From NCBI RefSeq assembly GCF_029784155.1, contig NC_073693.1:25642002-25706001 (forward strand): DNA of 64,000 nucleotides, written 5' to 3'. This document shows, piece by piece, positions 3,557 through 55,929 of this stretch. The notes below the pieces were generated by a model that saw nothing but the letters and a program-made list of their open reading frames with translations, had not been told where the DNA came from and made no database searches. Position 1 is the first letter of the stretch. Every line of letters starts with the position of its first letter. The stretch comes from Uranotaenia lowii (lineage: Eukaryota > Arthropoda > Insecta > Diptera > Culicidae). A program made the position numbers and the translations under genes.

Positions 3557-5260
3557 AGCTAACTTGGGCACCAAGTCGAATATTTTTTGAGCATTTTGTG
3601 GACATGTTTTCCGAAGCATATAGGATCTTTGGATTTTTTTTTCTTAGACTTTAAACAACGGAGAACTGAAGCATTGAGGCTGAATATTCTCTGAGTAAGG
3701 AGGTTCAACCGAGAATTGTCAAATTGACACTTAATGTCTGAGTTTGAGGTTTTTTTTCCTGGAATTTCAGGGTGCATCCATTAAAAAATAAATAATGCAA
3801 AATCAAAGATTCCTTGAATCCATTGAGGGTTCTCGAAGAACTTTTTTATATTTGGATACACCCGAACAAACATACAAGATGTCAAACTTCCAATAGTGTC
3901 ATATTAACACTCAAGATCGGATTAGGTTTAAATACCAAGAAATGTGTTTGATTTGCAGGCTTCGCTGGTTTGAAAAAGATCGTTTAAACTTTGTTTTTTT
4001 TTAACTTTTTTATCTTTATATTTTTCATAAAACTTGAAAAAACCAAGTACATTTCCTACTTAAAATGTTTAAATCAAATATTAAACACGTGAGCACAATT
4101 TCCCGCAAACGGTCTCGAACCCACATCAACCGAAGTTCAGACCAGAACCAGGATCCTGAATATTTGAACAGAAATCTTTTTTCCATCACCGTTTAGAACA
4201 TGCCGCCCGGTATTTCGGGTGGTTTTGCTCGTCTTCTCTGTATCAGCAACCGCTCCAGTTGTATTTGCGGTAGTCTCATTAAATTGGCAAAAGGCTTAAC
4301 AAGCAGCAGCAGTAGGAAAGCAAGGAAGGAATGTCGTTTGACAATTTTTCTTTTTCTGAACCGGCGGCGTCTTTTTGCTTCTATGTAGAGAGAAAGCAAC
4401 CAGCAGCATTTGAAAATTGAATTTTGGCAGATATCACCCGCACTCTCGCAATTACAGACCACTCACTTCTTCTGATGATGGTTTTGAGAGTCGGGAAAAA
4501 AGATGTTCTGGCACACCGACAAACCGTTTCGTTGTGGTAACAGCATTCCGGTGAAATCCAATATGTGCACGTTTTCCGGAAGAGTTGAGGCGTCTTTGCG
4601 CTGGACCCGTTGCTTCGGTTTCCTCCCAAACTGTATGTAGAAACCGGATAATAGGATAAAAATCTGCCCAAATTGCAACCACTTTGTATACACAATAAAG
4701 GTGGAAACGTGGCGTACTCCAAACCTTAGTAGGAAACCGGCTGAACTCTGTAGCATCGCAAAATCTTATGAAGAAGCGATGCGATTTCGAGTAATTGAGT
4801 CTTTGCCAGTAACATTTGTACCGACCGACCAACCGAGAGACCGGGATTCCGGATTCATTCTCCGGAAGCTGAAAATCCAATACTTTTTTACCCCCGGGAA
4901 GACATCCCCCCTTACCCTACATTCCGAGGCATTGGCATTGGCAGATTAAGTCAAGGTATCCGGGAGCAGCAGCCAGGTTCTAAATAATAGAAATGCTACA
5001 CTTACAGTCCCATGAAGTGGCAGCGTGGAGACGTGGCAAATTCTCCGGTGGGGAATCGCTCCGGAATTGGCACGCTTCGAACACAGTGGATAGCAGCGAT
5101 GCCGGGGCGTGGCGCGTCAGATGCCCATGAATGAATAAATTTCAATGATGTTTCGTACCGGAGCTTACTCTCTGTCTTCTCAGACTCGGTTTTATCATCG
5201 GAGGTGTCGTTAGCCCTGTCTGGGCGGTGGCACCGTGCGGTGAGTGCGGTGAAACTACAA
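3557..5260. other. unique, moderately GC-rich island
   Basis: Non-repetitive sequence with higher GC than its surroundings. Short frames are present on both strands (for example about 4381-4880, minus), but none has recognisable domains. One GWRAGGGGGGATGW word occurs at 4902-4915 on the minus strand. Function unknown; it may be regulatory DNA inside a large intron. Confidence 0.5.
4902..4915 (-). promoter_or_regulatory. G6 motif, GTAAGGGGGGATGT
   Basis: Minus-strand match to the dispersed consensus GWRAGGGGGGATGW. It lies in a unique island. The regulatory role is inferred only from recurrence. Confidence 0.5.
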
Positions 5261-6421
5261 ATTGAAAATTTTTGGAAAAATGTGATGTAGCAGTTCCTAA
5301 AGTGTAAAATAGTTAATCCAAATTGAAATGTTTTTAGTTAGATAGAGTAGTTTTGAAAATTTGTATGTTGAAGTCAGATACTCGCCATAGAAGAATTTAA
5401 AGTGAGTCTTTGATTGACACAATTCTTGCAAATTATTTGTTTTCAGACGCGTTGAAAATCCCTTTAACATCACTATGATTCGAAAATAGAAGAGACAACC
5501 TCAAAAATTCTACTTTTTATAATAACTTTAAGGTACTCACTTTTATGGTAGGAAAACTCTCAAACAAATTCAACTTAAAATAAGACATAACTCGAAAATT
5601 ATATTCAGTTGATTTTTATAAAAACAGGTTCAGAAGCGTGATCTGACAAAAAAGTTGGTATATTTTGCAGAATGACTACTATCACATTTGAAAAAATTAT
5701 ACAGACTTTCATAAAAAACGACAGGATTTGAACCATTTTCATGTCATTTTTATGGAATTTTGTTAACATGATGGTTTATAATGGCGCATTGATTAATTTT
5801 ATTGAGTGGTAATTCTCTCTTTTTTACGGTAGGACCCCACATAAAATCAGTGTAAATTTTGCCAAAACTTGAACAATTAGATGCGACTTTCGTAGAAAAT
5901 CAAGTTTTTGATATTAAAGAAAATTTCTTGTACTATCTTAATTAACACGGCCACTGATATCTTAAAAAGGGTGGTGCAACTGGACGACTTGTTGTATAGA
6001 TAAATAAGGCCGGAAAAAATTCCAAATCCTTCTTTTGGGAAGAGGATAGGTAGGAGATAATAAAAAATAATGCAAAAAAACAAAAAAATTGGAAAAATTT
6101 CACGAATGCTTGTATGCAACAAAATTGCTTACTATATCATTGCACAAAACCTATTAATCAAGTCATTTTTTTATATATAAAAAATTCAACAAAATCACGA
6201 ATACAAAAGGTGATAAAATCCTATCGTCCACAATTTGATGAATTTTTTCCTAAATTCCATAAACTTTTTCAAACTATATTTATACCCCTTTCCGACGATT
6301 TTTTGGAAATTTTGATGGTGTGGGGGGGAGGGATGGTGACAAAAGTAGAAATTAATATTTGTTTAGGAAAAATTTATCATAAATTTCATCACAAAGTTCA
6401 TACATGAAGGTTGTAACATAA
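5261..6421. other. AT-rich unique DNA, no gene seen
   Basis: AT-rich sequence with many stops in all frames. A purine run of seven G near 6321 resembles the G6 word superficially but lacks the ATGW end in register. No gene or repeat family recognised. Confidence 0.5.
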
Positions 6422-6885
6422 GGTTGCAAGATTTTTTTCAGTACACTTACGGGCTATTTTATCTAAAAATCTGGAAAAGTTACGGACGGCAATTGATTTC
6501 GAAATGTTCGTTCAAGAATCCTGCAAGTATCCGGATAAATTGGTCAAAACGATGAATTAAGTCAACAAAGATCAAGAAAAAATCCAGACAATTTTTTTCA
6601 TCAGAACTGTTCAGTAGATTTTAAGTACTATTTCAGGCTTCCAATAAACGTTGCATGATTGATTCAAAAAACTTGCTAAAAAGATTTGTTTTGGACGCAT
6701 AAATAAATAAAAAAAAATCGTGACACAATTTATTTTCGTTTGATTTTGCAAATCAAGTGAATAAATCCTGGTGAAATCTGGGTATAATTTCAATGAGTTC
6801 CAAGCAACCAGGCTGGCCAGACTTCTTCAAAACATTTAATTCAATATCCGGACAAACCCGGAAAAAAACCGGGCAATATGGCAAG
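6422..6885 (+). mobile_element. MITE-like element, family 1, copy 1
   Basis: Non-autonomous inverted-repeat element of about 465 bp. It opens with GGTTGCAAGATTTTTTTCAG and closes with GGGCAATATGGCAAGC. The same ends, in the better copies TTGCCAGATT and AATCTGGCAA, recur at 35348-35826, 52086-52489 and 52656-53138. The interior carries repeated CCGGATAAA and CCGGGCAA words. There is no coding capacity and I could not define a target-site duplication. The superfamily is not determined. Confidence 0.75.
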
Positions 6886-7289: not shown

Positions 7290-8950
7290 GGATGAAATTT
7301 TTATTTTTCAGATTTTCGGATGACTCTTTTGAAGGGGGTCGTCAATATAAACAAATTTTTTTTAGCAATTTTGTCGTTATTATAAGTTGTATTGAGATGA
7401 AAACTTGCACAACGGGGTTTTGAAGGACAGGCAATTGATTTCAGGTATCAAATTTTTTGTAAGGGATCGGCAAAAGGGATCGTCCAAATTAATTGTCTTT
7501 GCGATTTTGGCGTTATTTTGAATTGGATTGGAATGAAAATTGGCTCACAAGGGTTTTCAGAGAAGGGCAAACGATTTCACTATTCGCTGTTTTAGCGATA
7601 TCGGCTATGTTATTCACGAAATTGAAATGCAAATAAGTACACAGAAGTTTCAAAGAACGGACAATTGATTTTTGGTATCAAATTTTGTGTAAGAGGCCGG
7701 CAAAATGGAGTCGTCCATACAACACCCACACTGTTTAAGTGATATTGATGTGATTGTACATGGGATTGAGATGAAAATTTGAACACGGGAGTTTGAAAAA
7801 ACGGGCAATCGATTCCAGGCATCAAATGTTGTGAAAGGGTCGTCCAAATTATTTGTTAACTGTTTGACGATATTAACATTATTGTACACCAGTTTAAATG
7901 AAAATTGGCTCACGAAAGTTTCCAGGAGCAGACAATTGATTTCAAATATCAAATTTTGAGTAAGAAGCTGGCAAAAAGGGTCGTTCATACTTCACAAATA
8001 CTGACTTTGTGGAATTGACGTTATTCTACTTTGGATTGATATGAAAATTTGCACACAGGAGTATTCAAGGAAGGGTAATCGATTTCAAGAATAAAATTAA
8101 ATTTGGAGGGTCGAAGAAAAGGGTCGTCCATATAACCTGTTACTCGTTTTTGTGATATTGACGTGATTGTCAATTGAATTGTGATAAAAATTTGCGGATG
8201 AAGGGAAACTAATTTAAGTTGTACAATTTTGAGTGAGGGACTGGCAAAAAAGGTCGTCTTTATTAATTGCTAACTATTTTTGCGATATTGTCGTGATTAT
8301 GCATCAGATTAGAATGAAATTTGGAACACGGGAGTTTGGAGGGATAATCAATTGATCTCAACTGTCAAATTCTGGAATATTAATCGGCAAAAGGGGTCGT
8401 CAATATTTATGATTTACTGTTTTTGGGATATTGTTGTTATTTTGCATTAGTTTCAATGCTGGAGTTTTGAGAGCTGAAAAATTCATTTCAGATGTCTTCT
8501 TTTGGATCGGAAATCAGAAAAAGGAGCCGTCCATATACATTGTTCAATATTTTTACTATATTTACGTTATTTTGCATCGGATCGACCCGAAAATTGCAAA
8601 AGAGAGATTTACAGAACAATTAATCTTTTCCTGATTTCCAACTTTCTATATGGTAGAAATTAGGGGTCGTCCATTTTATCTGTTCAATAATTTTGCAAAA
8701 ATTGATTTATTGTACATGGGATTGAGAGAAATATTCACACAAGGGAGTTTTGCAAAACGGACAAACGACTGTTGGTTTGAAATATTCTATCAGAAGATAA
8801 AAAAGAGGTCGCTCATAATCACTTGTTTATACTTTTGTAATAGTTGTCTTTGTATCGTATCGAGAATAAAATTCATACATGCAATTTTTGCAGGACAGGC
8901 AACCTTTTTCGAATTCGGTATCCAACGACAGAAAATGGTATCGTTCTTTT
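7290..8950 (+). repeat. diverged ~142-bp tandem array
   Basis: About 11 to 12 diverged units. The anchor GGGGTCGTCMATATAA-like word recurs near 7327, 7471, 7700, 7838, 7979, 8121, 8251, 8395, 8521, 8665, 8808 and 8940. Spacings are mostly 126-144 bases, with one 229-base gap holding an extra partial unit. Each unit also carries an ATTGATTTCAA-type word, an AAATTTTG word and GGCAAAA before the anchor. Open frames on the minus strand simply follow the repeat. I do not recognise the satellite. Confidence 0.85.
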
Positions 8951-9814: not shown

Positions 9815-11560
9815 TGTTCATATTTTTTCCGAAAAAGGAAAACAAATATTATTTTTATTTATGTTTGATAGACAAGCAATTTCAAGTTCAATATTTTCTG
9901 GAATATTTTCAATATTCTCGTTCACCGTTTAAATACAAATTCCTCATCAGAAATTCAAATTTACTAGCAAAACGGAGTTCGTATGGAATCAGCTTAATTT
10001 TTGTTTACTAAAAAATGGAACTATTATGAAGGCGTGTATCTTTAAAAACTTTCTGCAAAAAAAAATGAGGGTAATCTATGGAAAAATACATAGAAAAAAA
10101 AATAAAAAAATTTATAAAAAATATTCATATTTTATTCTTGGTATCTCAAATCGTTATGTCACTGATCAGTTTTTATCACTTTTACTTCGTCAAATCAACA
10201 TTTCAGGTGACTGCATTGTTCTTCTTCAATTTCCGCTACTTTTTTGGCCAATCCTCCTTTTTTGACAGAAACTAGGGACAATTTGGTAGATTCAGCTGTT
10301 TCGATTTTAAAAAGACTTCATTATTTTTGTGCCAGTATAACACGTTTTCACAGAAATGTCAGCATTCAAAACCTCTTAAAAACACAGAAGAATTCATAAG
10401 TTTGAGTTAAAAATTAAATCGATCAGTTGAGATCGTAGGTTACGGAGTTATCAAGCAAAACTACCCTTTTAAGCTATTTAAAACATGAAATATCAATGCT
10501 TTCGTCATAAAAATTTTGGTTTTTTCGTTAACCGGAGCAGAACGAGCGACCTTGCCACGAGCAGAGTTAAAGCAGGATTTTTTAAGCCGTAATTTGTAAA
10601 TAATAATTTTTTTCGCAAGTTTTGTTGTCCATCGAATTTCAGCCGTCGCATTGGCTTGGCACTGACTTTTCAACATACAAGCTCTGGAACTAACAAACAT
10701 TTGTTTTTTGAAGTTTATTTAACATGATTAATTGCTGGGCAACACTTCTTGCCTCTTAGGGACAAATCAGCTGGACATTTCAGCGATCTACACTTGATTT
10801 TAAGCTCATTCATCATTTGAAATGCTGATATATGCTTTGACTTCCCTTGTGATCTTTAACCGTAGCTCTGATCATGAGCTGCACTCCACTAAACATTTGT
10901 ATCGAAGTATAAATAAGAAGGCCACGAAATGATCATAACTCAAATGTTTAGGATTTATTAATTGAACTATATTCTACAAAATTTAACACAACAATTTCGT
11001 TAATTCATAGATTCAAAATTTTTAGGATTTGGTCCCGTATTTTTGTGAGACAGGATGCCGAATTTTGATTTTTTTTGCTTTGATTTTTCGTGGACCTTAA
11101 TGTGGTGTCATAATTTTTATTTCACTAAAGAACATTTTCATTTTTAAATGGGTTTGTGCTCCATTTTCAACAAATTTTTATCGATCATGATTTTGATATG
11201 AACGTCATACAGTTTTTATTTTTTTATAAATTTTTTTCAGTCTTGAACACACAAACATGTTTTGATGTAGTAAAATCCATAGGATAGATTAAAAAAAACT
11301 GCCATTTTGAATTAAGAAAAATTATAAACCAAACCTTTTATTTTCTTAAAATTTGTTTGACTTACAAGTTTAACACATGATAGGATTTACTTGCACTTAA
11401 TCGATTTAATTTGAAAAATTTCAAGTTAGCCTTCTTCGGAAAAAATAGATACAAGAAAGCGCAAGACTTTATCATTATTGAGAAAATACAAGTGAACAGT
11501 CAAATTTCTTAGTTTATGCGATTTTTTTCGATTTGCAGCCGGCTGTTGTGAGAATCCTCG
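9815..11560. other. AT-rich unique DNA, no gene seen
   Basis: A/T-rich sequence with scattered short frames (up to about 80 codons) that lack motifs. A slightly GC-richer patch lies near 10530-10680. No repeat family recognised. Confidence 0.45.
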
Positions 11561-12261
11561 TTATAAAAAATACTTTTTTTCGGCAATGTTTTAAGCCTAG
11601 CCCCACGGTGCGCTAGTTGCCTTGCCACGCTCCATCAGCCGGGCGCAGATTTGGAACTATTGAATTAAATTTATTAAAATTTCATTCAATTTGAGCGTGA
11701 TATTTTATTGAAAGCAGCCGGCCGCTACTGCTTCACAGCAGTCGCAGCAGCTGCAATCTCTGGGAAGCGATCCAAACGGCGGCGTCTACTCTCGGCTGTG
11801 CAATATCTATGAGCCAGCTGTTTCCCGGATTGACTTCCTTCCTGTTTTTTTTTTGCGGGAGGCCTGTGACCCCGCAGCAATTGAATTTTGCGCCGGCTGT
11901 AGCCAATTTGCAAATGAACCTTTGCATAAACGAGTATCAAGAAACTCGGGGAAGCGAAACGCCTACGACGTTTTGAAACAAATTTTGTAAGTTTTCAAAC
12001 AGGGTCCACAGAGGATCTGAATAAAATTTATTCCAAATGGAAGTTCACCCTCAGGTATTGGGAATTGAAACCCGGCCTGGAACTGGCCATCTGCCAATAA
12101 TTACCGGGAATCAGAAACCGATACACGAAGCAGCACAAAATCACCGGCTGATTCCAATCCGGTAGGAGTTCCTTGGGAGTTGCCCTCCGGGTGCCGGTGT
12201 GATGGTCGATGTAATTAATGTGATAGTTAAGCATTATTGCTATTGTTGTGTCCTTTACGCA

Positions 12262-12275
12262 TCATCCCCCCATTC
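12262..12275 (-). promoter_or_regulatory. loose G6 motif, GAATGGGGGGATGA
   Basis: Keeps GGGGGGATGA but has GAAT in place of GWRA. Counted as a loose member of the dispersed family. Confidence 0.35.
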
Positions 12276-12350
12276 CAGGGACAGATAGGACGGGGTCATT
12301 CTCGGGTCATAACCAACTGGTCGTCGTCATCATCGTTATCATCTGCTGCT

Positions 12351-12370
12351 GATGACGACGACGACGACGA
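12351..12370. repeat. (GAC)n microsatellite
   Basis: Six to seven near-perfect GAC trinucleotides just after a (CTG/CAT)-rich stretch. Short and probably neutral. Confidence 0.8.
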
Positions 12371-12734
12371 TTTCTCGATAGGCCACTGGAAGCCTTCCTA
12401 TCGGCTAATGGTCAAAAGCTGGCTAGCGGCTAAAGTTTCCATTCGATGACAGGTTGATGGAGTGTTTCTTACCTCCACCATTTGTCGAATCTCGAATGAA
12501 TGTAGGTTCGTGTCTGTGCCTGAATGCGTGTCTGCCAGCCAGGTCATGAGGCCATCAGCATTCGAGCTGTCCCTCAAAGCAGAGGGAAAACCGCTGCAGA
12601 AGCAGAAAGCGCACAAAATTCAAGCCAGACGGGTTTGAAATACGAACGAACACCCCCCCTCCAGAAACAGAGACACACATCTACACACAGTTCACGCATT
12701 CTAATGGGAATCAATCTTTCATGCCCTCTAGAGC

Positions 12735-12751
12735 CAGTCAGTCAGTCAGTC
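12735..12751. repeat. (CAGT)n microsatellite
   Basis: Four tandem CAGT units in unique island sequence. Confidence 0.7.
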
Positions 12752-14209
12752 GGTAGTCGTCGATTCACATACGTCGTCTGGGGTTTGTTGCAGGAAAACC
12801 GGAAACGGGAGAACCCGGGATTACTCACCACCCGCTGATTTCCATGCCCCTTCCTTCACCATTCAGGGAAAAGAACCGGTCAAGATACAAAACTAATGGA
12901 CATGTGAAATTGGTTTTCAACTTCGGTCTGCTTCCCGGGGCCAGGATTTTGCTTCTGCTTGTCTGTACGTTTCCGTTCGTTCAAATCTTCTCTGCATGCT
13001 TCCCCATTTTACTTAGACGAAACGTAGCCGAGCTCCGAGAGCTACAACATAAGGTACAAGTGTGTGTAATTAATGCTAAAATTGAAATTTTCCACTCGGA
13101 ATGTTCGTTGAATACTGGGTGTGTGCTACTTAATGAGTTTTGCCTCTTCTTATCGGGTTCGAGTCCGACATTTGTTACAACAGGAACAGGTAACAGCATG
13201 TTGTCTGATGTGGCAAAAGTCGAACTGGTCGATAAACTGAAAAGAAGCCTGTTCGAGAAATGGATTTTTTTTTTGAATTTTTCAAAGCAAAACGATAAAA
13301 GTTTAAAAATAAAACAAAACAAAAAAAAATCACTTACCTATATGATTTTTTTTTCAAATGTCAAGGCTTCGTCATTTGACTTATTATCAAATAAGTTCAA
13401 AATGAACTTAAATTTTTTTTTTGCTTTTGAATTTTTTTTTTCAAGCACCGACAAAACTTTGTAGTTTTGAAAGATTTTCCATAACAAACTGAAAAAAAAT
13501 CCAATCGTTAAATGTTTTATTTGCTTTCCCAGAAAATCGCCCATTAAACAAAAGTTCTCTATTTAGTCTATTTCCCGGGCTAATTGTTTCTCGCCGAAGA
13601 AAACTATTAAACAAGCTGCAGCCCACAAATGACCTTTTCCGGGAAACAACTTTTCCTATTATCTAACCAACGACCGTAAAGTTATGCTCCACTTTTCGGA
13701 AAGTCCCTAAAACTAGAAGGTACCTTCCCGAAAGAAACCAAAAGAAAACCATCCACCTCGAAGACAATAACTTATTAAAATGAAAGATGGCCATCAAAAA
13801 TTAAACACAAATTACTTTTAATAGCAGTGCTGCCGTCGGGAAAAGCCGACACTTGCCTCGAGTGAGTAAATGAGCAGAGTGAATGGTGTGGCACCTTTTG
13901 ACTTTTGCTCGAATCAAGTTTCATCCCCAACTTCAGTTTTTCGAGAGTAGACAGAAAAAAACCCAAGAACAACTAAACGGTGAAAACTGATGACCGACCA
14001 CCTCTTTTGTCTTAATGTTTTTCAACTCTAGGGGTGAAGCACCACTTTCCATCGGTGGAAACATTTATAAAATGTGACATTCTTAAAACGGAGCATAAAA
14101 GTTGCTCGTTTGTTATGTTTAATGAAAAATTAAAATTGTTCCATAAATACTCGGAACGAAGAAAGAAAGGTGTACTTTGAGTGTTTATCCTAACTAACGA
14201 ACGAGGAGA

Positions 14210-14223
14210 GTAAGGGGGGATGA
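14210..14223 (+). promoter_or_regulatory. G6 motif, GTAAGGGGGGATGA
   Basis: Exact match to the dispersed consensus, followed directly by further TGATGA repeats. Confidence 0.55.
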
Positions 14224-16668: not shown

Positions 16669-16683
16669 GAAAATTTTGACAGT

Positions 16684-18909: not shown

Positions 18910-18923
18910 GAAAGGGGGGATGA
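18910..18923 (+). promoter_or_regulatory. G6 motif, GAAAGGGGGGATGA
   Basis: Match to the dispersed consensus, GAAA subtype. Confidence 0.55.
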
Positions 18924-19124: not shown

Positions 19125-19138
19125 GTAAGGGGGGATGA
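19125..19138 (+). promoter_or_regulatory. G6 motif, GTAAGGGGGGATGA
   Basis: Exact match, GTAA subtype, 215 bp downstream of the copy at 18910 and in the same orientation. Confidence 0.55.
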
Positions 19139-20360: not shown

Positions 20361-20374
20361 GTGAGGGGGGATGA
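20361..20374 (+). promoter_or_regulatory. G6 motif, GTGAGGGGGGATGA
   Basis: Match to the consensus, with G at the R position. A TAACACCA word downstream resembles a CAACACCA word after the copy at 14210, but I see no extended homology. Confidence 0.5.
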
Positions 20375-22412: not shown

Positions 22413-24941
22413 TTTTGAATTGTTTTGAGTTCTGAATATTCTGCCGTTTTTGTTATTGTTTTTTATATTGAAAATATAATTCATGATTGAGGTTTGTTTT
22501 TCATTGAATTTTTAATAATTAACCTTTGATAAAAAAATTGTTTCAATGAAATTGGCTGATTTTCTATCTCAACGAATTATTAATCGAATTATTCTCGTCA
22601 AAATTAAACACATCTAGGACCAAGGAACTGAAATTTTGCCTGGAACGCCACTCATCACCCGCAAAAAAATGAACGAGCGAATGAATTATATAGCAAATTC
22701 ATAAGCATGAAATTGTTTTCTTAAAGTTTTTAATAAATTCTTTCGGATAAACCGATGTGATGGAGCACTTTTTCGTCGCGGGTAGCAGGTCTTCCTTCGA
22801 CTACGTCTGGGGTTGGCGATTATTTGCTAGGCAAGAAGCGCCATGTTCCTTCTAAGGTTTGCTTCGCTCGGTTGCCCTCGAGGCGACACAGAGAAGACGA
22901 ATGACTTGATCCGCCCTCGCTTTAGGTTTTTCCTAGCTGGGCTGGGTGACAAACTTCAGTCAGCGTTCCGAGTTGAGGTCATCCCCCATCCGGAGAAGAG
23001 ACAGCTTCTTCCAGCTGGCAATCTTTAATTTTGATTCCCCACCAGCCAGACGAAGAAGATGACGATCACCCGACCTAGTCCTCGGTGCTTTTGAAGTCTA
23101 GTTTTTATATTTCATTATTTGTTCCCGCTTCGTTTCCACCCCCATAAATAATCAGCATCTGCAGAGTAAAAACTATTTAGCAGAAGGAGTAAACAAACTG
23201 TTTGGTTCTCGTCCAGGCGGGACACATTTCGCGCTACAGAAACGGTTTACTCGTTTGGTGTCTCATTTGGATTCTGATGCTGAGCTTTACTTTTTACTTT
23301 AGTAGAAGGTTGATTTATCTTAGAAAATTGTTACTGCTCAGAAGGTTGAAAAATTGAGAGGATGTGCTTCAACCCGAGTGTTCTGTTCCAAACAAAAGTA
23401 TAAAAAAATACATATTGTTCTTAAAATTTGTTTTCTTTGATTTTTAAATTATTGGTAACACCAATGTCTCATCAAGGAAAGTGGGTCGCATCTCATTGCA
23501 GAAACATTTCAGAGCTTAAACAAATATTTACACTGAAAAGAGTAACAGAGAGATTTCAAACGCCCTCGCTCGTCCCGGGGGCTGGTTATTTTCACGCCAA
23601 ATATATTTACACACCTTTGTCGGGCCGATCTCAGATTGGTGCGTAAAACCAAACCAGATGCATGATGAATTTTCCCGGAAAATAAACTCCAAAACGATGG
23701 TGATGGTGCTGATTCTGATCGGAATTGATCAGCAGGTTTGCGGAGGTATTTGAGTATTTGGCTGTGTGGTTTTGTGAAATCCAATCCCGAAACTATACCG
23801 AGGAAAGGGGGGATGATTACGAGACAGGAATGTTAATTTTCTCGGTTACTCGATAAACGATTGGAAAATGAATAGAGTTAATTGAGCAATTAGTGCAAAT
23901 TTTGTGCAATGATTAATTCTGCTTTCGAGTTTTTTGAATTGATTCCGGACGACTCGATGGGAATTGGTTGTCTGGTCTGGAATATCCCATTTGGCTTCGC
24001 CGGACCCTTCCCGGTGTTAATTAAATTGATTGTTCGTTTTTCTCCTCGGCTCAAAGGTTGTTGTTTAATTGCCCCAATGAACGTGTTTCAAATGAGAATG
24101 TTGTTGAAACTGGGATAATCAGATAATAGCATCCGATTCCGTCAGAATTGTTTCCAGAAATTTTCATAAGGTAGCTCCCTGCAGTTTCTCTGCTCTTATC
24201 GCAAACACTGATGGTGACAGCTTCGAAACCATCATCACAAAACTACCACTAATGCCAACAGCTGTTGTGTACCTCTACACACAAGTTGCTTTTGCGCCCT
24301 GTCAGCGCGTGGCGTTGTGAAAAAGTAATTAAAATTTGTTAATGAAAGTATGAAATTTTGATGAAGCCGTGCCGGGGTTCCAGGCTCGAAGGAGAGCTAA
24401 AAAACCGCCGCCGTCACCAAACGATCATCACGTGACTCTTCAGTTCTTGGAGCCGGTACCACAACACAACAACACAAACAAACTTCACACCCCTCGGCAT
24501 CGTGTCACTGCCAATAAGATGGTTTGCTTCATGGGAGGTATCCAACCTTGGGTTTGCCCAATTTTGCCGGAGGCAGGCGACCTTCTTTTGGTTTGCACTG
24601 ATAGAAGGCAAGAATGGAAAGAGAAAAATCCTAAAAGAAAAATCAAAGAATGGCACCACACTCATTAGTCGTAACCACTGTTGATGCTTCGGTAAAAAAA
24701 GGGAGATATCGGGCTTTTTTGTTATTTTTTCTCTTTCAAATCGTAAAGTAAGAAAAAAAAAACATTTGCACGATTGAGAAGTAACTAACTCTGCTTTGAT
24801 GAAGTCCGAGTTGGGAGATTTGGACGTAAACAAATGCAATCAAAATGCATTATTTTCATCTAAAAAAACTACAAGTTTTTGAAACTGATCGGAAATGAAA
24901 TGATTTGGCTAAAAAAAATGAAAAGGTTAGCATGATTGAAT
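22413..24941. other. unique island with one G6 motif
   Basis: AT-rich at its left edge, then unique and GC-richer. Contains the G6 word at 23803 and a five-G near-match at 22979-22990. Short frames of up to about 140 codons lack recognisable domains. Confidence 0.5.
23803..23816 (+). promoter_or_regulatory. G6 motif, GAAAGGGGGGATGA
   Basis: Exact match to the GAAA subtype in unique sequence. Confidence 0.55.
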
Positions 24942-26450: not shown

Positions 26451-26464
26451 GAAAGGGGGGATGA
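26451..26464 (+). promoter_or_regulatory. G6 motif, GAAAGGGGGGATGA
   Basis: Exact match to the GAAA subtype. Confidence 0.55.
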
Positions 26465-27293: not shown

Positions 27294-27307
27294 TCATCCC
27301 CCCACGA
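27294..27307 (-). promoter_or_regulatory. loose G6 motif, CGTGGGGGGATGA
   Basis: Keeps GGGGGGATGA on the minus strand but lacks the GWRA start. Confidence 0.35.
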
Positions 27308-27568: not shown

Positions 27569-27582
27569 TCATCCCCCCTTTC
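27569..27582 (-). promoter_or_regulatory. G6 motif, GAAAGGGGGGATGA
   Basis: Exact minus-strand match, GAAA subtype, followed by a second weaker GGGAGGGATGATAA-like word. Confidence 0.55.
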
Positions 27583-33097: not shown

Positions 33098-33111
33098 GTA
33101 AGGGGGGATGA
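33098..33111 (+). promoter_or_regulatory. G6 motif, GTAAGGGGGGATGA
   Basis: Exact match, GTAA subtype. First of four within 1.25 kb. Confidence 0.6.
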
Positions 33112-33169: not shown

Positions 33170-33183
33170 GTAAGGGGGGATGT
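33170..33183 (+). promoter_or_regulatory. G6 motif, GTAAGGGGGGATGT
   Basis: Exact match with T at the last position, 72 bp after the previous copy and in the same orientation. Confidence 0.6.
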
Positions 33184-33607: not shown

Positions 33608-33621
33608 GTAAGGGGGGATGA
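33608..33621 (+). promoter_or_regulatory. G6 motif, GTAAGGGGGGATGA
   Basis: Exact match, GTAA subtype. Confidence 0.6.
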
Positions 33622-34327: not shown

Positions 34328-34341
34328 TCATCCCCCCTTAC
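34328..34341 (-). promoter_or_regulatory. G6 motif, GTAAGGGGGGATGA
   Basis: Exact minus-strand match, GTAA subtype; the opposite orientation to the other three in the cluster. Confidence 0.6.
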
Positions 34342-42180: not shown

Positions 42181-42430
42181 TTTTAATATTCTAATGCTTC
42201 TGAATTCTATCACCTCACTGCCAACGTCATTCAAATCAAAACGACAAAAACCGTAGTCTCCCTGCTTTCAACGCGAAAACCTTCAATTAAAGTCAGTATT
42301 CTTGATTTGTTTCTTTTCATTCAACCTTCAGTCAAGCTGTCCGGGGCTCGCATTGTCGAATTTCCCAGTCGAAACCACAAAACAGACAAAAACGACTGCC
42401 GAGATCATTTTTCATGTCAATTAGAGAGCG

Positions 42431-42456
42431 AGTCGTCGTCGTCGTCTTCGTCGTCT
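42431..42456. repeat. (GTC)n microsatellite
   Basis: Interrupted GTC/TCG trinucleotide tract in unique DNA. Confidence 0.7.
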
Positions 42457-43093: not shown

Positions 43094-43107
43094 GTAAGGG
43101 GGGATGA
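43094..43107 (+). promoter_or_regulatory. G6 motif, GTAAGGGGGGATGA
   Basis: Exact match, GTAA subtype, isolated by more than 8 kb from its nearest neighbours. Confidence 0.55.
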
Positions 43108-45080: not shown

Positions 45081-47120
45081 TTTAGCTTTTTAATATGCTG
45101 CTGCCTGCAAGGCCTGAAAGGCTTCTGGAAGTCTTAAAGAAGTCTTCTGGAAGTCTTCTATAAGTCTTCTGAAAGTCTTCTGAAAGTCTTCTGGAAGTCT
45201 TCTGAAAGTCTTCTGGGAGTCTTCTGAAAGCCTTGTGGAAGTCTTCTGGAAGGCTTCTTGAAGGCTTCTTGAAGGCTTCTGGAAGGCTTCTGGAAGGCTT
45301 CTGGAAGGCTTCTGAAAGGCTTCTGGAAGGCTTCTGAAAGGCTTCTGGAAGGCTTCTGAAAGGCTTCTGAAAGGCTTCTGGAAGGCTTCTGGAAGGCTTC
45401 TGGAAGTCTTCTGGAAGTCTTCTGGAAGTCTTCTGGAAGTCTTCTGAAAGTCTTCTGGAAGGATTCTGGAAGTCTTCTGAAAGTCTTTTGGAAGTCTTCT
45501 GGAAGGCTTCTGGAAGGCTTCTAGAAGATTTCTGGAAGTTTTCTGGAAGTCTTCTGGAAGTCTTCTGGAAGTCAGCTGGAAGTCTTCTGGAAGCCTTCTG
45601 AAAGCCTTCTGGAAGTCTTCTGAAAGTCTTCTGGAAGTCTACTGAAAGTATTCTGGAAGTCTTCTGAAAGCCTTCTGGAAGTCTTCTGAAAGTCTTGTGG
45701 AAGTCTTCTGGAAGGCTTCTGAAAGTCTTGTGGAAGTCTTCTGGAAGGCTTCTGGAAGGCTTTTGGAAGGCTTCTGGAAGGCTTCTGGAAGGCTTCTGGA
45801 AGGCTTCTGGAAGGCTTCTGGAAGGCTTCTGGAAGGCTTCTGGAAGGCTTCTGGAAGGCTTCTGGAAGATTTCTGGAAGGCTTCTGGAAGGCTTCTAAAG
45901 GCTTCTGGAAGTCTTTTGGATGATTCCTGGAAGACTTCTAGAAGACTTCTATAAGACTTCTGGAAGTCTTCTAGGAATTTTTTTTGAAGCTTCTGGAAGT
46001 CTTCTGGAAGGCTTCTGAAAGGCTTCTAGAAGGCTTCTGGAAGGCTTCTGGAAGGCTTCTGGAAGGCTTCTGGAAGGCTTCTGGAAGGCTTCTGGAAGGC
46101 TTCTGAAAGGCTTTTGAAAGGCTTCTGGAAGGATTCTGAAAGGCTTCTGGAAGGCTTCTGAAATGATTCTGGAAGGCTTCTGGAAGTCAGCTGGAAGTCT
46201 TCTGGAAGTCTTCTGAAAGCCTTCTGGAAGCTTTCTGAAAGTCTTCTGGAAGTCTTCTGAAAGTCTTCTGGAAGTCTTCTGAAAGCCTTCTGGAAGTCTT
46301 CTGAAAGTCTTGTGGAAGTCTTCTGGAAGGCTTCTGGAAGTCTTCTGGAAGGCTTCTGGAAGTTTTCTGGAAGATTTCTGGAAGGCTTCTGGAAGGCTTC
46401 TGGAAGGCTTCTGGAAGGCTTCTGGAAGTCTTCTGGATGATTCCTGGAAGACTTCTAAAAGACTTCTATAAGGTTTCTGGAAGTCTTCTGGAAAACTTCT
46501 GAAAGGCTTCTAGAAGGCTTCTGGAAGGCTTTTGGAAGGCTTCTGGAAGGCTTCCAGAAGCCTTCTAGAAGAATTTTAGAAGTTTTCCAGAAGACTTCCA
46601 GAAGCTTCAAAAAAAAATTCTGGAAGACTTCCAGAAACCTTATAGACTTCTATAGAAGGCTTCTGGAAGGCTTCTGGAAGGCTTCTGGAAGGCTTCTGGA
46701 AGGCTTCTGAAAGGCTTCTGGAAGGCCTCTGGAAGGTTTCTGGAATGCTTCTGGAAAGCTTCTGGAAGGTTTCTGGGAGGCTTTTGAAAGTCTTCTGGAA
46801 GTCTTCTGGAAGTCTTTTAGAAGTCTTCTGAAAGATTTCTGGAAAACTTCTGGAAGACTTCAGGAAGACTTCTGGAAGACTTCTTGGAGTCTCCTGGAAG
46901 TCTTTCGAAAGTTTCCTGGAGTATTTTTTAAAGGCTTCTGAATGTCTCCCGGAAATCTTTTGGAAGTCTTCTATAAGTCTTCTAGGTGTCTTTTGGAAGT
47001 TTTTTTGAATTCTCCTGGAAATCTTCTGGAATGCTTTTGGAATTCTTCTGGAAGTCTTCTGGAAATCTTCTGGAAGTCTTTTGAAAGTCTTCTAAAAGTC
47101 TTTAAGATGACTTGTTAAAG
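45081..47120 (+). repeat. 11-bp array F, unit AGGCTTCTGGA / AGTCTTCTGGA
   Basis: About 180 units of an 11-bp repeat. Blocks with the GGCTTCTGGAA form alternate with blocks of the GTCTTCTGGAA and CTTCTGAAAG forms, giving higher-order structure. A local inversion at about 46550-46660 is flanked by a 31-bp palindrome at 46535-46565. It is the same basic unit as array E (CTTCTRGAAGN) with G replacing A. Confidence 0.95.
46535..46565. repeat. 31-bp perfect palindrome at array strand switch
   Basis: Fifteen-base arms around a single central G. The left arm reads GAAGGCTTCTGGAAG, and the right arm is its exact complement. It marks the point where the 11-bp unit changes strand. Confidence 0.8.
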
Positions 47121-48480
47121 TCTTTCATTAGTTTTTAAGGTGTCTTCAAGAAATCATCAAAATGCCTCTCAAAACTCATCAAATAGTTTTCAAAAGTTTT
47201 GATTTTGTAATTTTTGCCAATACTATCTTAAAATATTGATTTTCGTTCCCGATAAAGGCTCAATTCCTAAGCAATTTGCCCTGAAGTTGAAAAACATGCT
47301 CCCCGAAAAACTTTAGCCCCGGTGAGTATCGATTCCATTACATCATAACGGTGCCCCTGGGAGCGCCCGCAACTTTTCCGGCACCTTGGCGCGATAGGAG
47401 AAGCACAGCAATCAAAAGCAATGACCTGGAAAAAATCCGGTGGAAGAAACTTCTTCAGGAACCTCCCCATCCCCCTTTCGATATTATTGCAGCTTCAGGA
47501 AAATTTATTAACTTCATTGGAACAAGACGAAAACAAGATAATAAATTATCGCAACTTTGGTCCACACATCATCCAACAGCATCGTCCTCAGACTTCCGGC
47601 CAGCCACTCTTCGGTGCGGTTGGCGCCTTCACGAAAGTTGTCTTGCACCCCCGCCTCTTGGAACCCTCAAACCCTCAATGGTGCTCTGCTCCAGGAAATT
47701 CCAACTTCTGCAATCGAACTTTGAGGTGTTCGAATCACGTGGGATTCCGTGTGTGTTTGATGGGTGGTAAAAAAAAACAGAGAAAAAACTTGGCGAGAAG
47801 AACTACCTGTTGTTTTTTTTCTCATCCCTGTTATTGCTCAAGTGGCTTGAAGCTAAAGATTACACTTTGATGGTACCTACCTTTTTGGACGAGAAAACGT
47901 CACAATCTGAAGAAGTTGAAGAAGGGTGGTAAAATACTTGGCCTGGCTCGGCCTGAGTTGTTGGGTTTTTCCCGAAATGGAATTAGGATAATTTTATTAC
48001 CATCGAACCACCTCGTTTGGGGAGCACTTACCTATATCTAGAGATCCGGATGAAGAAGCTGAAAATGGCGGCTGGCTCGAATCAACGAAACGAAAAAGGC
48101 ATGAAATTGACTAAAGCGTCCCACCGAAACTTCAACTGAACTCAAACCGAACCGGGGTGATGAGTCCCCAGGTTTCGAAAGACGGCGACCACCACCACCA
48201 TCATTTGACTTGTCGGCTCTTTTCCGGAAGGTTTACTACATTCCCGGCCGAGGCAAACTATACCTATCGAACGGTTTCTCCGCCCGGCCATTTCGGGAGT
48301 GATTCAATCCTAATCAAATCCAATTACCAATGAAAATGGATATTCGAGAAGTTTGCCCCGGAATGGATCAATAAATCACAGTCTGCTTCCCGTTTTTTTT
48401 TGCCTCTAGGAGCAGGATGAGGATGTTTGGTGTATGATGAATCTTGAATAAAAGGTTTTGGTGAATTTTAAAAGTGAGAA
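47121..48480. other. unique GC-richer island
   Basis: Unique DNA. Two overlapping plus-strand frames of about 140-149 codons (47351-47770 and 47421-47870) have no recognisable domain. A five-G near-match to the G6 word lies on the minus strand at 47467-47479. Confidence 0.5.
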
Positions 48481-51400
48481 AAAAAAATTAGAACACTTCC
48501 TATTGAATTTTTGAATAAATTAAAGCATTTTAAAATTCTTATCGTTTTTAAGACTTCTAGAATAATTTAAAAGAATTTGATAATAACCAATCTTTCCCTT
48601 CAAGCCTTTGAAAGATTTTAAAAAGGCTCCCAATGACTTCTTCATACTTTCGATAAGATTAACAGCAGATTATTGACCTCAAGAGAACGTTTTTAAGACT
48701 TTCAGAAAAGTTAAGATCAAATTCTTCTGAAAACTGTTTGATAGACACCTGAAACACTTCTAAAGGAACGTTTTAATTCTTTTCGAAGACTTTTGGAAGA
48801 TTTCAAAATTCCCTGTATTCTGTTTTTTTTTTAGATTTCTAATGACAAATGAACTCGTTAATTTGTAGATGTTTTTGCTTCTTTTTCTAGTCCTGTGGGT
48901 ATCTACACAACCTGAGTTTAAACATTTCTAAGATTCAGTGGGAAAAAAATAGTTCAAACTTTTTTTAACCTAAAAAATGGTTTTATTTATTCGTTAATTG
49001 GCTAATGATTTAGTTCGTTCCTAAATTAAGTGTTAAAAACTGAAAAAAGAATTTAAAAGGACTGAAGCCTTCTGGAGATTATCTTTAAGACTTCTTAAGA
49101 ACTTTGAGAAGACTTTTGGAAGGCTTTGAAGATATTTTGATGACTTCTGGAGACCTTTCGATAAACTTTTAGAAGGCTTGAGATTTTTTTCAATGTTATT
49201 TCAGAAGCTTTCTGGAAATCTTAAAAAAGATTCCCAGAGTTCCTTCCTAGAGTTACACAAGACTTAAAAAAAACCGTTTAGAAGACTGCTTGAAAGTTTC
49301 TGAAATTCTTCTAAAGACATTTATTTGAAGATTTTTCATCCTTTTAGGATGATTCCATTATGCTCTGATTGATTTCAAAAAGACAACTGAAAGATATTTT
49401 TTTCAGTTTTCCAGAATAGATTTTCTTGAAAATTGTGGATGACAGTCAAAAAGCTTTTGTCAAATTTCTATAATATAATTCAAAACCATCTTAAGGGCTT
49501 GAAAATATGATCTGAAGACTAGTTAACGCTTCCAGATAACTTCTATTAAAGTTGTAAAAGATTTTTTGATGAATTATAGAACACTTCTAAAGCACTTCTA
49601 GAAAAAATTGGAAATTTGAAAAAAGACTTTTGAGACATCAAAAAGATTTCCGGAAAACTTTCAGAAGCCTTCGAAATGACTTGATTGGCTTCTGGAAGGT
49701 TGTTCAATCGATTTTTGAAGACTTTTAGAAAATTCGAGATGAATTTCGAAGCACGAAGACAAAACTTTGAGAAAACATTCAGAAGACTTTTTGAAAATGT
49801 TCAAAAGGCAGTCCGGAGGCTTTTAAAAGACATCTTTAAAGTTTTAGCAGGCTTGAAGGAGATTCCGGTAGGCATTCAAAGACTTCTAGAAGACTAATTG
49901 AAATGGTCAGAAGTTCAATAGAAGAGCTTTCAATGGTTTTTCATAGCCTTCTTGAAGAATAAGTGAAGATAAATAGATTAACTCCTGAAGATTTTAAACA
50001 GACTTTAGATATTTTTAATGAAATTTCAGACGCTTCCTAGAGAATTTTCAAAAGATTTAGAGAGTTCCTTTCAAGAATTTAGGAAGAAATTCAAAAAAAT
50101 AAATAGAAGACTTCTTGAAAGTATCTGAAAGACTTCAACATACTTTTATTTTGGATTTTCATCTTTTTCGGATGATTTATCCTTTTACTTTAAAAAGACC
50201 ATTAGGAGAAATTTGAACATTTTTTTCAGTTTTCCAGAAGAGATTCATTCAGTTTCTATAAGTTTTTTGAAAAAGCTCTTGACTTAAAAATATTATCCAA
50301 AGACTAGTTAAGACTTTCAAATTACATTTTAAAAAGTTGAAAAGGAAGTTTCGATAAATTATAGAACACTTCTATAACATATCGAGAAAATTTCGAAACG
50401 AAACTTTGAAACATCTAAGAGATTTTCGGAAGAGTTCGAAAAAATGTTAAGGAGCCATCAAAAGACTTTTGATGACTTTCATAGTCCTCCGGAAGATTTT
50501 TCAATGTTTTCTTGAAGACTTCTAAAAATTCAAGAAGCTTTTTCAAGATCTTCAAAAGGCCTTTGGAAGGCTTTTAAAAGACTTCTTGAAAATTTTTAGC
50601 AAGCTTTAATAAGACTTTGAAAAGTATTCAAAGACTTCTAGAAAACTATTGTAAAAAGACTGAAGTCAAAGAAAAAACTTTTAAAGGCTTCTTTGGCCCT
50701 CTAGAAGAGTTAGTGAAGGAAATAAGATGAACAACTTAGACCTTGGAACAACAGATCTAGGAATTTTTAAAGAAATTTCATACGCTTTTTGGAGAACTTT
50801 AAAACGATTTTTAGAGTTCCTTACAAGAGCTTAGGAAGACATTCAAAAAAATTTAGAAGTATCTGAAAGACTTCAACAAACTTTTTTTTCAGGATTTTCG
50901 TCTTTTTCGGATAGTTATTCCCATTTTCTTTAAAAAGACCACTGGGAGATATTTGAACACCTGTTTAAGTTTTCCGGAAGAGATTCTTTAAATTTCTTTA
51001 AGTTTCTATAAAAAAGCCCCTAACTTAAAAATTTTATCTGAAGACTAGTTAAGACTTTCATATTACATTTATAAAAGTTGTAAAAGAGTTTTCGATGAAT
51101 TATAGAACACTTTTAGAAAAAATCGAGAAAATTTCGAAAATAAACTATGAGACATCTGAGGATTTTCGGAAGACTTCAAGAAAATGTCAAGGAGCCATTC
51201 AAAAGACTTTCGACGACTTTAAAAGACCTCCGGAAGGTTTTTCAATTTATTCTTGAAGACTTCTAGAAAATTCTAGATTACTTTCAGAGGACATTTAGGA
51301 CTCATATCACAGACAGGAAAAAAAACTTCTCATAATTTTAAGAAGACATTTAAAGGACTTTTTTGAGGCTTTCAAAAGGCATTCGGAAAGCTTTTTAAAG

Positions 51401-52085
51401 ACATTCAAAGATTTCTAGAACACTTTTGAATATGGTGAAATATCCAATAGAAGATCTTTTAAATGATTTTTATAGGCTTCCAGAGGAGTAAGTGAAGACA
51501 ACTGAATGAACAACTTAGAAGACTTTAAGCAGATTTTAAAATATCTCAAGAAGGCTCTTCGAAGTCTTTTTGAAAAAAATTACACAAACCATCTTAAAAC
51601 TTCTGGTAGACTTTTAAAATATGTTAAGAAACGTTACTTCAAATCTTCACAGAAGACTACATCGAATTTTTTCATAAAGCTTCACAAAATATGTTAATAT
51701 ACCTTCACAATTATGGTTGAAGTAATGTTTTCTCATTTCAAAAATTTAATTCAATAAGGAGACTTCTTAAAACTACTAGCAGACATCTAGAACATATTAG
51801 AAGACTTTGAAAATTTGTAGAAAAAAAACTTCCATAAGAGGCTTCATAAGAATGACCACCAATTCAGGAAAAATACAACAAGAAGATTTCATGAAAAAAA
51901 TAGAAGACTTTTAGAAGACTTCTTGAAAATATTGTGAAGATTTTTAGACGATGTTTTTTAAAGAATTTTCAGAAAATTGTCGAAACATTCTAAGAAAATG
52001 TCTTCAAAACCTTAAAGGCTTCTAGAAGACTTTTAGAAGATCACGAGGAGCCTATTGAAAACTTTTATAGACTTTTAGAGTAAGA
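48481..52085. repeat. decayed 11-bp repeat with ~0.74-0.82-kb higher-order units
   Basis: GAAGACTTTT, TTCTAGAAGA and AAGACTTC words throughout show decayed array E/F material. At least three higher-order copies exist: a block beginning AGACTAGTTAA occurs near 49516, 50299 and 51043, and a block with ATCTTTTTCGGAT-like words occurs near 49340, 50155 and 50893. Spacing is about 740-815 bases. No gene seen. Confidence 0.8.
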
Positions 52086-52489
52086 ATGCAATAATTTTTT
52101 CACCACGTATCCGAGATATTTTATTTAAAAATCTGGCCAAATTCAGGCATTTGGTTTAAGAATTGTCGACCAAAAGCTCGGGCAATATCTGGAAAAATTT
52201 GGTGAAAATTGAAAAATAATTTTTTCATCAAAATTTATCTGTAACTTTCAATTTGTATTTCAGGATCTCAAAACACCATTCATGGTTATTTTTATTATCT
52301 GCTCGAAAAAAAAAATTTATGACGCAAAAAAAACTACAACATAATTTTTTTTTGTTTAATATGGCAAATAGAGTGAATAAATTTGGGCAAATTCCTTGCT
52401 TTCTTCAATAAACTCCCGACAACCGGACTCTCCTTAAGTTTTGTATAAAATATCCGGGAAAATTCAAATAAAATGGGCAATCTGGCAAG
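52086..52489 (+). mobile_element. MITE-like element, family 1, copy 2
   Basis: Begins TGCAATAATTTTTTCACCAC and ends GGGCAATCTGGCAAG. Shorter than the other copies, so it probably carries internal deletions. It lies inside the tandemly duplicated block 52086-53280. Confidence 0.7.
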
Positions 52490-52655
52490 TTTATTTTGGA
52501 GGATGTTAAGTGACTTTCTGATGTCTTCTTGAAGCCGTCAAGAAGACTCTATAGAGGTATTAAGATTACTTCTTTTAGACCTTAAGAAAACATCTGATGA
52601 CTTTGTGAATACGTTCAAATGGCTTTCAGATCACATTTAGAAGACTTCAAGATAA

Positions 52656-53138
52656 GGTTGCAAGATTATTTTCAGCACGTATTCGGGCCAGATAAATCCG
52701 GGCAATTTTAAACAAAAACTTGTCAAAAGCATTTGAATTAAAAATTAACGACCAAAAACCCAATCCGGGCAATATCCGGGAAAAATCTTTTTTTTTTTCA
52801 AAACCCAGAAATTACTTAACAAAAATCTAGAATTTTTTTTTTAAATCCATCAAAACTTATTGGCAGATTTTAAAATGTATTTAAAGCTATTAAAAAACTT
52901 ACCATGATACATTTTTATTAAACTTAATGGAAAAATTTTGTTTTAGGACATAATGAAAAAAAAAATACAACACAATTTGATTTTTTTTTTTGTTTTTTTT
53001 TGGCAAATAAAGTGGATAAATCCGGTCAAAATCCGTGCTTTTTTCAATGAAATCCGAGCAATCGGGCCGGACCGGGCTTTTTCAAACATGTTATAAAATA
53101 TCCAGACAAATCCGGATAAAATAGGGCAATCTGGCAAG
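52656..53138 (+). mobile_element. MITE-like element, family 1, copy 3
   Basis: Begins GGTTGCAAGATTATTTTCAG and ends GGGCAATCTGGCAAGC. The best-preserved plus-strand copy, about 483 bp, containing several CCGGGCAA and TCCGG words. It is the second unit of the tandem duplication. Confidence 0.8.
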
Positions 53139-53280
53139 CTGATTTTTGAGGACATCTAGTGGCTGTCTTGAAGCCATGAAGAAGACTCTATAGAGATATT
53201 AAGAATACTTCTTTAAGACTTTAAGAAGACATTTAATGACTTTTTGAATTCGTTCAAATGGCTTCCAGATCACGTTATGA

Positions 53281-53600
53281 ATAAAGTAGAAGACTTTTAA
53301 AAGTCCTCGAAAAATTTTAAGTTGTCTTCTAAATTTGGCTAAGGATACTTCTAAAATATATCTAGAAGACTTTTTGAAGGGTTGTTAGAAGACTCTCAAA
53401 GATTTTTAAGGAATTCTCGAAGATTTTGAACAGACTTTTTCGACATATAATGACAATTTGTTAAAACCTATACAAGTTTTTTAGAGAATGTATGACAAGT
53501 TTAATTCAGCTATGTTGAATAAATTTCTGAATAAGCCTGAATTCAACTTTTATAGGCATTATCACTCAACTGATACCAGTTCAATTTTTTACCTATTTTA
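53281..53600. repeat. decayed 11-bp repeat, right edge
   Basis: Last AAGACTTTT/CTTCTAAA words of the 11-bp field, fading into unique sequence. Confidence 0.5.
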
Positions 53601-53737
53601 AAGGTTTTTCAATAGTCCAAACCTTTAAAAAATATCCAAAGCACAGCCAAAATCCTCAATCGTAATAACTCAAGCCCTCGGTAACCCGTACTAATCAATT
53701 ATTCCAATTTTATGGTAGCATCAATTTTCCTCGGCTG

Positions 53738-53759
53738 CTGCTGCTGCTAGCAGCAGCAG
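53738..53759. repeat. 22-bp CTG/CAG perfect palindrome
   Basis: CTGCTGCTGCT followed immediately by AGCAGCAGCAG, giving a perfect hairpin with no loop. Confidence 0.8.
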
Positions 53760-55915
53760 ATTGAAAAATAAAGCTTACAGCCAGGACCATCATCAGAAAA
53801 TAGAATCATCCGTTGTTGCTTCGTTCCTAGATTCCGAAAAAAAAATTAGGGAAGGAGGAGAAGAGGCAATCATGGCGGACCACGCACTCGATATAGAGAT
53901 TTAGTGTTATCGGAGATAAGCGGGCAGCAGCAGCAGGCGGAGCAAAAATATATGACCGGAGCCAAAATCGATAGATTCCCCCCCAAGCTGGCGAAACCTT
54001 CAAATATCTACCGTGTTGGCGTATAGAAAAATGGCTGTGGCATTGATAAAATTTCGCCACAACTATTTGTTTTCACGGGTTGAATATTATGGGATTTATA
54101 AAAAAAAAACTTTCCCATCCAACAGGAGGCAGCTGGGACTTTGAGTCCAGCATGGTTTCAAAAACATCAAAGCTATTTTTACGTTCCCTTTTAAATGCCT
54201 ATTTGTTGGTGATGGTTCAAGTAAAAAATGGGAAAATTTATCACGAAAATCACTGAGAATGGCTCTGCCAACATACAATCCTTCAGTTAGATCCATCGTT
54301 GGCGTGGTTTTAAACTTTAAAATCGTGGTCTCTGTAATTTTCACAGCCTTTTTCATTGCTCTGCAGATTACTGCTTTTTTTTTGCATCCGATTCAGACTT
54401 CTATTCGAAGGCTGATATACTACTCAACAAAATTTTGGATTTTAATTTTTTTTTGTTTTTTAAACTTCAAATTTTAGTCGGTCTAATTCTCAGTCCATGA
54501 GCCATCGTTGAGATCGCTCACCGGGTCGTTTATTTGTATCTGTTTTGAAGGTAAAGTTGAAAACGAACATGTCCAGATTCTGAGCTCCACAAATGCCAGA
54601 AAAACCAGGTTCAGGTGCCAGCCGGGTCCTTAACCGTTAAAACCCACTTTTCGGTAGGAAAATAGTTTACGAGGTTTTCCGATGCGGCACCGCGGTTTGC
54701 CCATGGCCCGTTTTTGGCTGGCTGGGTGGGTGGACTAGGTTGGGAAAATGTGTAACCGTCATTGGAAACGCTTCAAGGGGTTTCCCTCTCATGGTTGACC
54801 ACATCAAGTGCAAGTTTTTGGCCGTTCGTTGACTCGAAAGAGTTGAAAGTTTTTTTTCCTCCTATAAACCAGCTGCGAATGCGAGTTATTTTGAAGGGTT
54901 GTGGTTCTATTTTGAAATTTTCCTACAAGGATTTTTCCCTCCTAAAAAAAATCAGCCTTTTTCTATAAATAATTCAACTTATTAGAACTCAGATTTTTTT
55001 CTAAAACTTTGTATTTTCTAGGCTAAAATCTGTGCAAACACCCTTAAACCCAGTAGAGGACATTTACCTCCTGGAAAACGATTCCAGTTGGTAACACAGA
55101 ACTAAGCAAATACAGCCAGCCAGTCGAAAGCGCGTTGAAATCGTCGTTAAATAGACTAACCTGGCCAAGCTTGAATGGACTCTAACCACATCAGCCAATC
55201 AAAAAGAAAACCCTTCCGGTTCAGACTGAACAAACAATGCCACTGGATCTGGATCCGATTAACTGCACGGAAGTGGTTTTGCTGATTTAAGAGGCATTTT
55301 TGCCGAAAGAAACATGGGACTTTGAATCACTCTAACATTAACTAGCAATGTTAAAAGTGGCTGATTATCAAAGTGGAGAAAACATACAAATTTAACAAAT
55401 TTGGAAGATCATCTTTCGAAAAATATTCCGATTTTTCCTAACACAACTTATTTGAACTGAGGAAAAGCTGCCACAAAAAGCTCTCAAAACTATCCCTAAT
55501 ATTTTCTCCACAAAACCAACGTGTGAGCAAGCTTGTTAATCTTGTACTCCAAAACGACTAAAATGACAAAATATTTCAAAATTCTCCCGGAACATGAGCT
55601 GTGGTTTTTTGTGATCATAAAAGTGGTCGCTCTTCTACACGTTTTCCTTTCTTGGCCGACGAGAGTTGTTGTTTTTTTTCGTCTCAAAAGGGATTTAAAC
55701 GCCCGGCAAAAGAAACACGCACATAACATTCGCTTGTAGTCTCTACGTGTGCTGAAATTTGAAGCCCGAAACCATGGGAAGGCCGACAAAATCTTTGCCT
55801 TTTTTTTTATTGTTTTTCAAGATTCACTTGAGTCGGTTCAGCTGAAGGCGACAAAAATGGGAAGAAAAGGAAACAGCAGAAGGTGACCGTTTTTCGTTCA
55901 TCGGAGGCAAGCGGG

Positions 55916-55929
55916 GAAAGGGGGGATGA
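55916..55929 (+). promoter_or_regulatory. G6 motif, GAAAGGGGGGATGA
   Basis: Exact match, GAAA subtype; rightmost copy in the window. Confidence 0.55.

Follow-up and report, generated by a model that had tools for sequence, protein, structure and literature searches.

The pairing centres of nematode chromosomes carry 12-bp repeats in which a short fixed word, set amid unrelated sequence, is bound by the HIM-8/ZIM zinc-finger proteins. The G-rich word described in the following, which recurs in a stretch of 64,000 nucleotides from the mosquito Uranotaenia lowii (contig NC_073693.1, positions 25,642,002 to 25,706,001; hereafter 'the window', with coordinates counted from its first letter), is likewise a short fixed word scattered in unrelated sequence, but it is a different word and the window is dipteran. 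A review of the C2H2 zinc-finger proteins describes them as binding long sites and as able to act as monomers, and the architectural or insulator proteins of this class in flies (CTCF, Su(Hw), Pita, ZIPIC and Zw5) as well as the promoter factor M1BP likewise combine long words, multi-finger binding and many dispersed sites (PMC5509000). In Drosophila, the ZAD zinc-finger protein Kipferl guides Rhino to loci of PIWI-interacting RNAs (PMC9531945). The word of the window conforms to the strict 14-base pattern GWRAGGGGGGATGW, of which a scan of the entire 64 kb finds 14 copies distributed over both strands. We consider it probable that a single sequence-specific protein, most plausibly of the C2H2 zinc-finger type, recognises this word in double-stranded DNA, and that the word is held by selection.

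Comparison with the described systems reveals both likeness and difference. The M1BP word as given in the review, (T/C)GG(T/C)CACACTG, differs from the G-rich word, the comparison of words covering those of M1BP and CTCF only, and the sites of the G-rich word look more uniform than those of the fly C2H2 proteins. The CTCF core, taken as AGRKGGCGC, is likewise another word, and a search for it returned 0 copies in 23,950 bases of hand-picked island DNA where 0.36 are expected, which makes this a weak test. Like the word considered here, the one attributed to Kipferl is G-rich and read by zinc fingers, and two AT-rich satellites hold none of the words given for that protein; the Kipferl word GRGGN is short and loose, however, whereas the present word extends over 15 bp and is nearly invariant (PMC9531945). 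In a literature search with the word and its pieces, none of the matches listed appears to treat it as a motif, as judged from titles, occurrence counts and the starts of abstracts, with logos in figures outside the scope. The strings GGGG and CCCC are absent from the main text of PMC13342555, where motif logos are figures, and the single match in PMC11469670 lies inside a long DNA sequence printed in an appendix.

The first-pass annotation of the window had described a dispersed motif of 14 bases with fourteen strict and two loose copies. All 14 strict copies are indeed found at the positions and on the strands given there. The loose copy at 12262 (− strand; GAATGGGGGGATGA) deviates by a single mismatch and can be retained as such, while the one at 27294 (− strand; TCGTGGGGGGATGA) has three mismatches and has only the 10-base core GGGGGGATGA in common with the others. 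When both strands are scanned with 0, 1, 2 and 3 mismatches to the 14-base pattern, 14, 1, 0 and 16 places are obtained, a distribution in which true sites and background are separated by a gap. The last 16 places, with 27294 among them, represent background; tolerating three mismatches at any position does not yield an additional family. The recurrence of the motif thus stands, but its length requires revision: the base directly 5' of the word is G at 14 and A at two of the 16 sites, so that the element is one base longer and comprises 15 bases, [G/A]GWAAGGGGGGATGA. It can also be written as [G/A]G[T/A]AAGGGGGGATGA, with a slight preference for A/T on its 3' side. One base further 5', G occurs at 8 of the 16 sites, and the columns beyond are near background.

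The nine core columns GGGGGGATG are invariant at all 16 sites and the following A is present at 14 of them, a uniformity which is in part a product of how the copies were found. Similarly, the information content of about 28 bits (16 columns, relative to a background that we set ourselves) constitutes an upper view, since the sites were gathered by matching. Apart from the GTAA and GAAA subtypes that had been recognised before, which account for 8 and 5 of the strict copies, a third, GTGA, is represented once. The word is asymmetric and non-palindromic, and hence not the palindrome expected for a dimer. Two relatives with five rather than six G's, GAAAGGGGGATG and GGATGGGGGATGA, are located at 47468 and 22980, both on the − strand, and may be weak or decaying sites.

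That these copies reflect chance or composition is a notion to which we assign a vanishingly small probability. It could draw on the fact that the word was chosen after it had been seen. However, in 300 dinucleotide shuffles performed inside blocks of 500 bases, which preserve the composition of the islands, the strict pattern occurs 0.003 times on average and at most once, compared with 14 times in the window. The excess claimed in the first-pass annotation is thereby borne out within the window. Correspondingly, GGGGGGATGA is observed 14 times against a shuffle mean of 0.093, and GGGGGGATG 16 times against 0.25. In the 50,936 non-satellite bases, an order-3 Markov model predicts 0.008 copies of the 12-mer TCATCCCCCCTT, of which there are 11; by our arithmetic from the Markov counts, the excess persists when all possible 12-mers are corrected for. 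The lists of 9-, 10-, 11- and 12-mers compiled from the same bases are each headed by a word of this motif, and the remaining high-ranking entries are triplet repeats and pieces of an 11-bp satellite. An internal control that is free of any model is provided by the G-runs themselves: ATG follows directly after 16 of the 20 runs of exactly six G's, whereas runs of four, five and seven G's are continued in this way in only 1 of 86, 2 of 16 and 0 of 3 cases, respectively.

The sites occupy a distinct part of the window. Local G+C content is at least 0.38 at all 16 of them, also when the word itself is excluded from the calculation, while 33.6% of the window reaches this value (p = 3e-8), and none of the sites overlaps any of the 44 tandem-repeat entries. 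The description of the motif as confined to unique islands is therefore accurate, and a satellite origin is unlikely. With 15 copies in 64 kb, the density amounts to about one per 1.4 kb if the 21,510 bases whose local G+C reaches 0.38 are taken as the reference. Eleven of the 16 sites are on the + strand and 5 on the − strand, which is not a significant bias (p = 0.21). Along the window, which was inspected by eye for an orientation rule of the CTCF kind, the orientations follow each other as two minus, six plus, two minus, three plus, one minus and two plus. The use of both orientations fits a site that is recognised at the level of DNA.

The binding-site reading, which had been one of several offered for the motif, remains the best one for what we regard as a putative site. 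The word is long, asymmetric and of the monomer type, as the site of a C2H2 protein would be, and its sharp edges, its asymmetry, its occurrence on either strand, the fixed length of its G-run and the scarcity of half-decayed copies together fit the site of a highly specific DNA-binding protein. We infer from the sequence that one protein would bind the approximately 15 bp as a monomer, that this binder would most plausibly belong to the C2H2 zinc-finger proteins and carry four or five fingers, and that GGG-GGG-ATG could be read as successive finger triplets. Selection on binding would then keep the sites, which are spread across unique, GC-richer and apparently non-coding DNA, nearly letter-perfect. 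Its role would most likely lie in chromatin organisation or gene regulation exerted via many sites per locus, and the protein may be an insulator, an enhancer factor, a factor of heterochromatin borders or may play another role in chromatin. Three observations weigh against such a reading. The sites of ordinary transcription factors are more variable, so that the uniformity encountered here is unusual. Among 11 known regulatory words sought in hand-picked islands, 10 have z below 2.5 and CAGCTG reaches 3.4, which represents weak enrichment. Finally, the 14 strict copies are divided 11 to 3 between the + and the − strand, a borderline bias (p = 0.057) that leaves room for a role in RNA. No partner word stands out when 6- to 8-mers within 150 bases on both sides of the sites are compared with other island DNA (best p 1.3e-3, with many tested).

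The borderline strand bias bears on a rival explanation according to which the word acts at the level of RNA: an hnRNP H/F-like binder would recognise the G-run as a linear motif, without a fold, within introns or long non-coding transcripts, and the motif would serve splicing or RNA retention. Besides the strand bias, it is consistent with this explanation that G-runs are known splicing signals and that 8 of the 14 strict copies start with GTAAG, which resembles a 5' splice site. We nevertheless consider it improbable: the bias is not significant when all 16 sites are counted, a fold signal is absent, and the fixed run length and the following ATG exceed what defines a generic G-run. The RNA motifs of hnRNP H/F have a similar G-run core but are short and degenerate, whereas here both the run length and the ATG are fixed. 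Two specific forms of the splicing-related or RNA element suggested in the first-pass annotation fare no better. A splicing-related element in the sense of a splice donor is unlikely because a 5' splice site requires GT, which the 5 of 14 strict copies reading GAAA do not have, and a structured RNA is unlikely because the fold is no more stable than that of shuffled sequence, with mean z of −0.03 for the strand that carries the motif and +0.20 for its complement (16 sites, pieces of 114 bases, 60 shuffles each), and because a scan against Rfam at gathering scores gave 0 matches.

Alternatively, the 15-bp word could be the footprint of short mobile or templated insertions, arising from an insertion or repair process or representing the terminus of a transposon family in an advanced state of decay. 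Near-identical copies amid unrelated flanks are what a pasted short sequence would look like. However, the flanks retain no common remnant, as judged by flank identity and by self-BLAST, neither of which was a search aimed at target-site duplications. For flanks of 48 bases compared without gaps (120 pairs on each side), mean identity is 0.253 for left and 0.260 for right flanks with a maximum of 0.417 on each side, and 2,000 random pairs of island sequence give a mean of 0.255 and a 99th percentile of 0.417. Self-BLAST of 300 bases on either side of each site detects a 19-base match between 18910 and 26451, which is made up of the word and a few further bases; in addition, simple-repeat sequence at 12321-12370 aligns with itself in inverted orientation. 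A transposon family is unlikely because flank identity equals that of random island pairs, and the earlier statement that the flanks do not align, and that no transposon has recently spread, is supported. Moreover, old insertions should have left copies with two mismatches, of which there are none: with 14 exact copies, one with a single mismatch and none with two, a decay series is lacking, two five-G relatives notwithstanding. By our arithmetic, neutral decay would produce these numbers only at well under 1% divergence, yet the flanks share nothing, and the mismatch distribution and the unrelated flanks together argue against age without selection. The word is thus either held by selection or repeatedly re-created; we favour selection and regard an insertion footprint as an improbable explanation. 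Quite improbable, in our estimate, is a meiotic or chromosome-scale mark with regional concentration, in the manner of nematode pairing-centre motifs or X-recruitment sites. The density given above is high for a word of 15 bp, but nothing points to a regional concentration of a word known here from the 64-kb window alone, and within the GC-richer DNA of the window the clustering of the sites does not exceed chance (4 sites in 1,245 bp, p = 0.32).

The pattern scan locates the copies as follows. The sequence GTAAGGGGGGATGA is found at 14210..14223, 19125..19138, 33098..33111, 33608..33621 and 43094..43107 on the + strand and at 34328..34341 on the − strand, while GAAAGGGGGGATGA occupies 18910..18923, 23803..23816, 26451..26464 and 55916..55929 on the + strand and 27569..27582 on the − strand. 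Two strict copies read GTAAGGGGGGATGT, at 4902..4915 (−) and at 33170..33183 (+), the latter 72 bp downstream of the copy at 33098, and one reads GTGAGGGGGGATGA, at 20361..20374 (+). The one-mismatch copy extends over 12262..12275 (−) and the core-only copy, the 5' part of which deviates, over 27294..27307 (−).

The DNA around the sites is apparently non-coding. None of 60 translations (10 open reading frames plus 50 translations made frame by frame from GC-richer stretches, in which X marks stops) reaches a curated Pfam cut-off, in a scan confined to the less AT-rich parts that would overlook short exons devoid of a Pfam domain. All six frames were covered for 11501-14500, 17881-20880, 22601-24930, 32601-35000, 42201-45110 and 53651-56650, four of six for each of 4051-5250, 25701-28200 and 61801-64000, and two of six for 47201-48500. 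Sub-threshold matches to Imm42, POB3_N, TRAF3_RING, Zn_ribbon_11, HVO_2833_C, Ogr_Delta and a zf-LITAF-like domain (E 0.0087) were judged to be due to chance. Two open reading frames that span sites have no match at E <= 1 in a search of 5.8 billion proteins, and a transfer RNA scan with bacterial settings returned 0 hits.

Several other repeats are present in the window. Satellite arrays with a 9-bp unit of the TTTTGTCAT / TTGTCAAAA type, comprising 81-346 copies, lie at 441-3557, 14696-17722, 21093-22411 and 24941-25670, and their A/T strand skew varies from array to array. As seen from the reading frames, the unit of the array at 14696-17722 seems to change from AATTTTGAC to TTTTGTCAT near 16.68 kb. 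A diverged array at 29257-30927 (AAATTTCTC, 71% matches) shares its period with the clean 9-bp arrays. Satellites with an 11-bp unit based on TTCTAGAAGAC / CTGGAAGGCTT are located at 39531-40346, 41136-41241 and 45118-47102 and are scattered over ~48450-53400; many degraded single units can be recognised by eye in neighbouring AT-rich DNA, and TTCTAGAA resembles a heat-shock element. A literature search for the satellite units found none. A 106-base unit that contains the phrase AAAGGGTCGTCCA recurs in seven diverged copies at 7360-8795 (61-74% identity to the reference copy), an apparent dispersed repeat with the phrases CCGGGCAATATCCGGG / GGGCAATCTGGCAAG is visible by eye at 35300-35800 and 52100-53150, and the window also contains islands of the CAGCAG type. 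These islands, the 9-bp and 11-bp satellites and the overall appearance of the sequence are reminiscent of a culicine mosquito.

Little is known about the proteins that organise mosquito genomes. One review counts the regulatory binding sequences of mosquitoes and their architectural proteins among the tasks still ahead (PMC7750206), and the mechanism of conserved long-range loops in Anopheles is described as currently unknown (PMC9005712). The uniformity of the 15-bp word makes it an ideal bait, and a single pull-down could name the protein. A more far-reaching proposal, which we advance tentatively and consider rather unlikely, is that the word may serve as a genome- or chromosome-wide address of an undescribed, lineage-specific zinc-finger architectural factor with near-zero tolerance for deviation and one site in about every 1.4 kb of the unique, GC-richer sequence. 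If this were true, such a factor would distinguish the unique islands from satellites and from AT-rich repeats, and would correspond, in an insect, to CTCF or the pairing-centre proteins, with far stricter sites.

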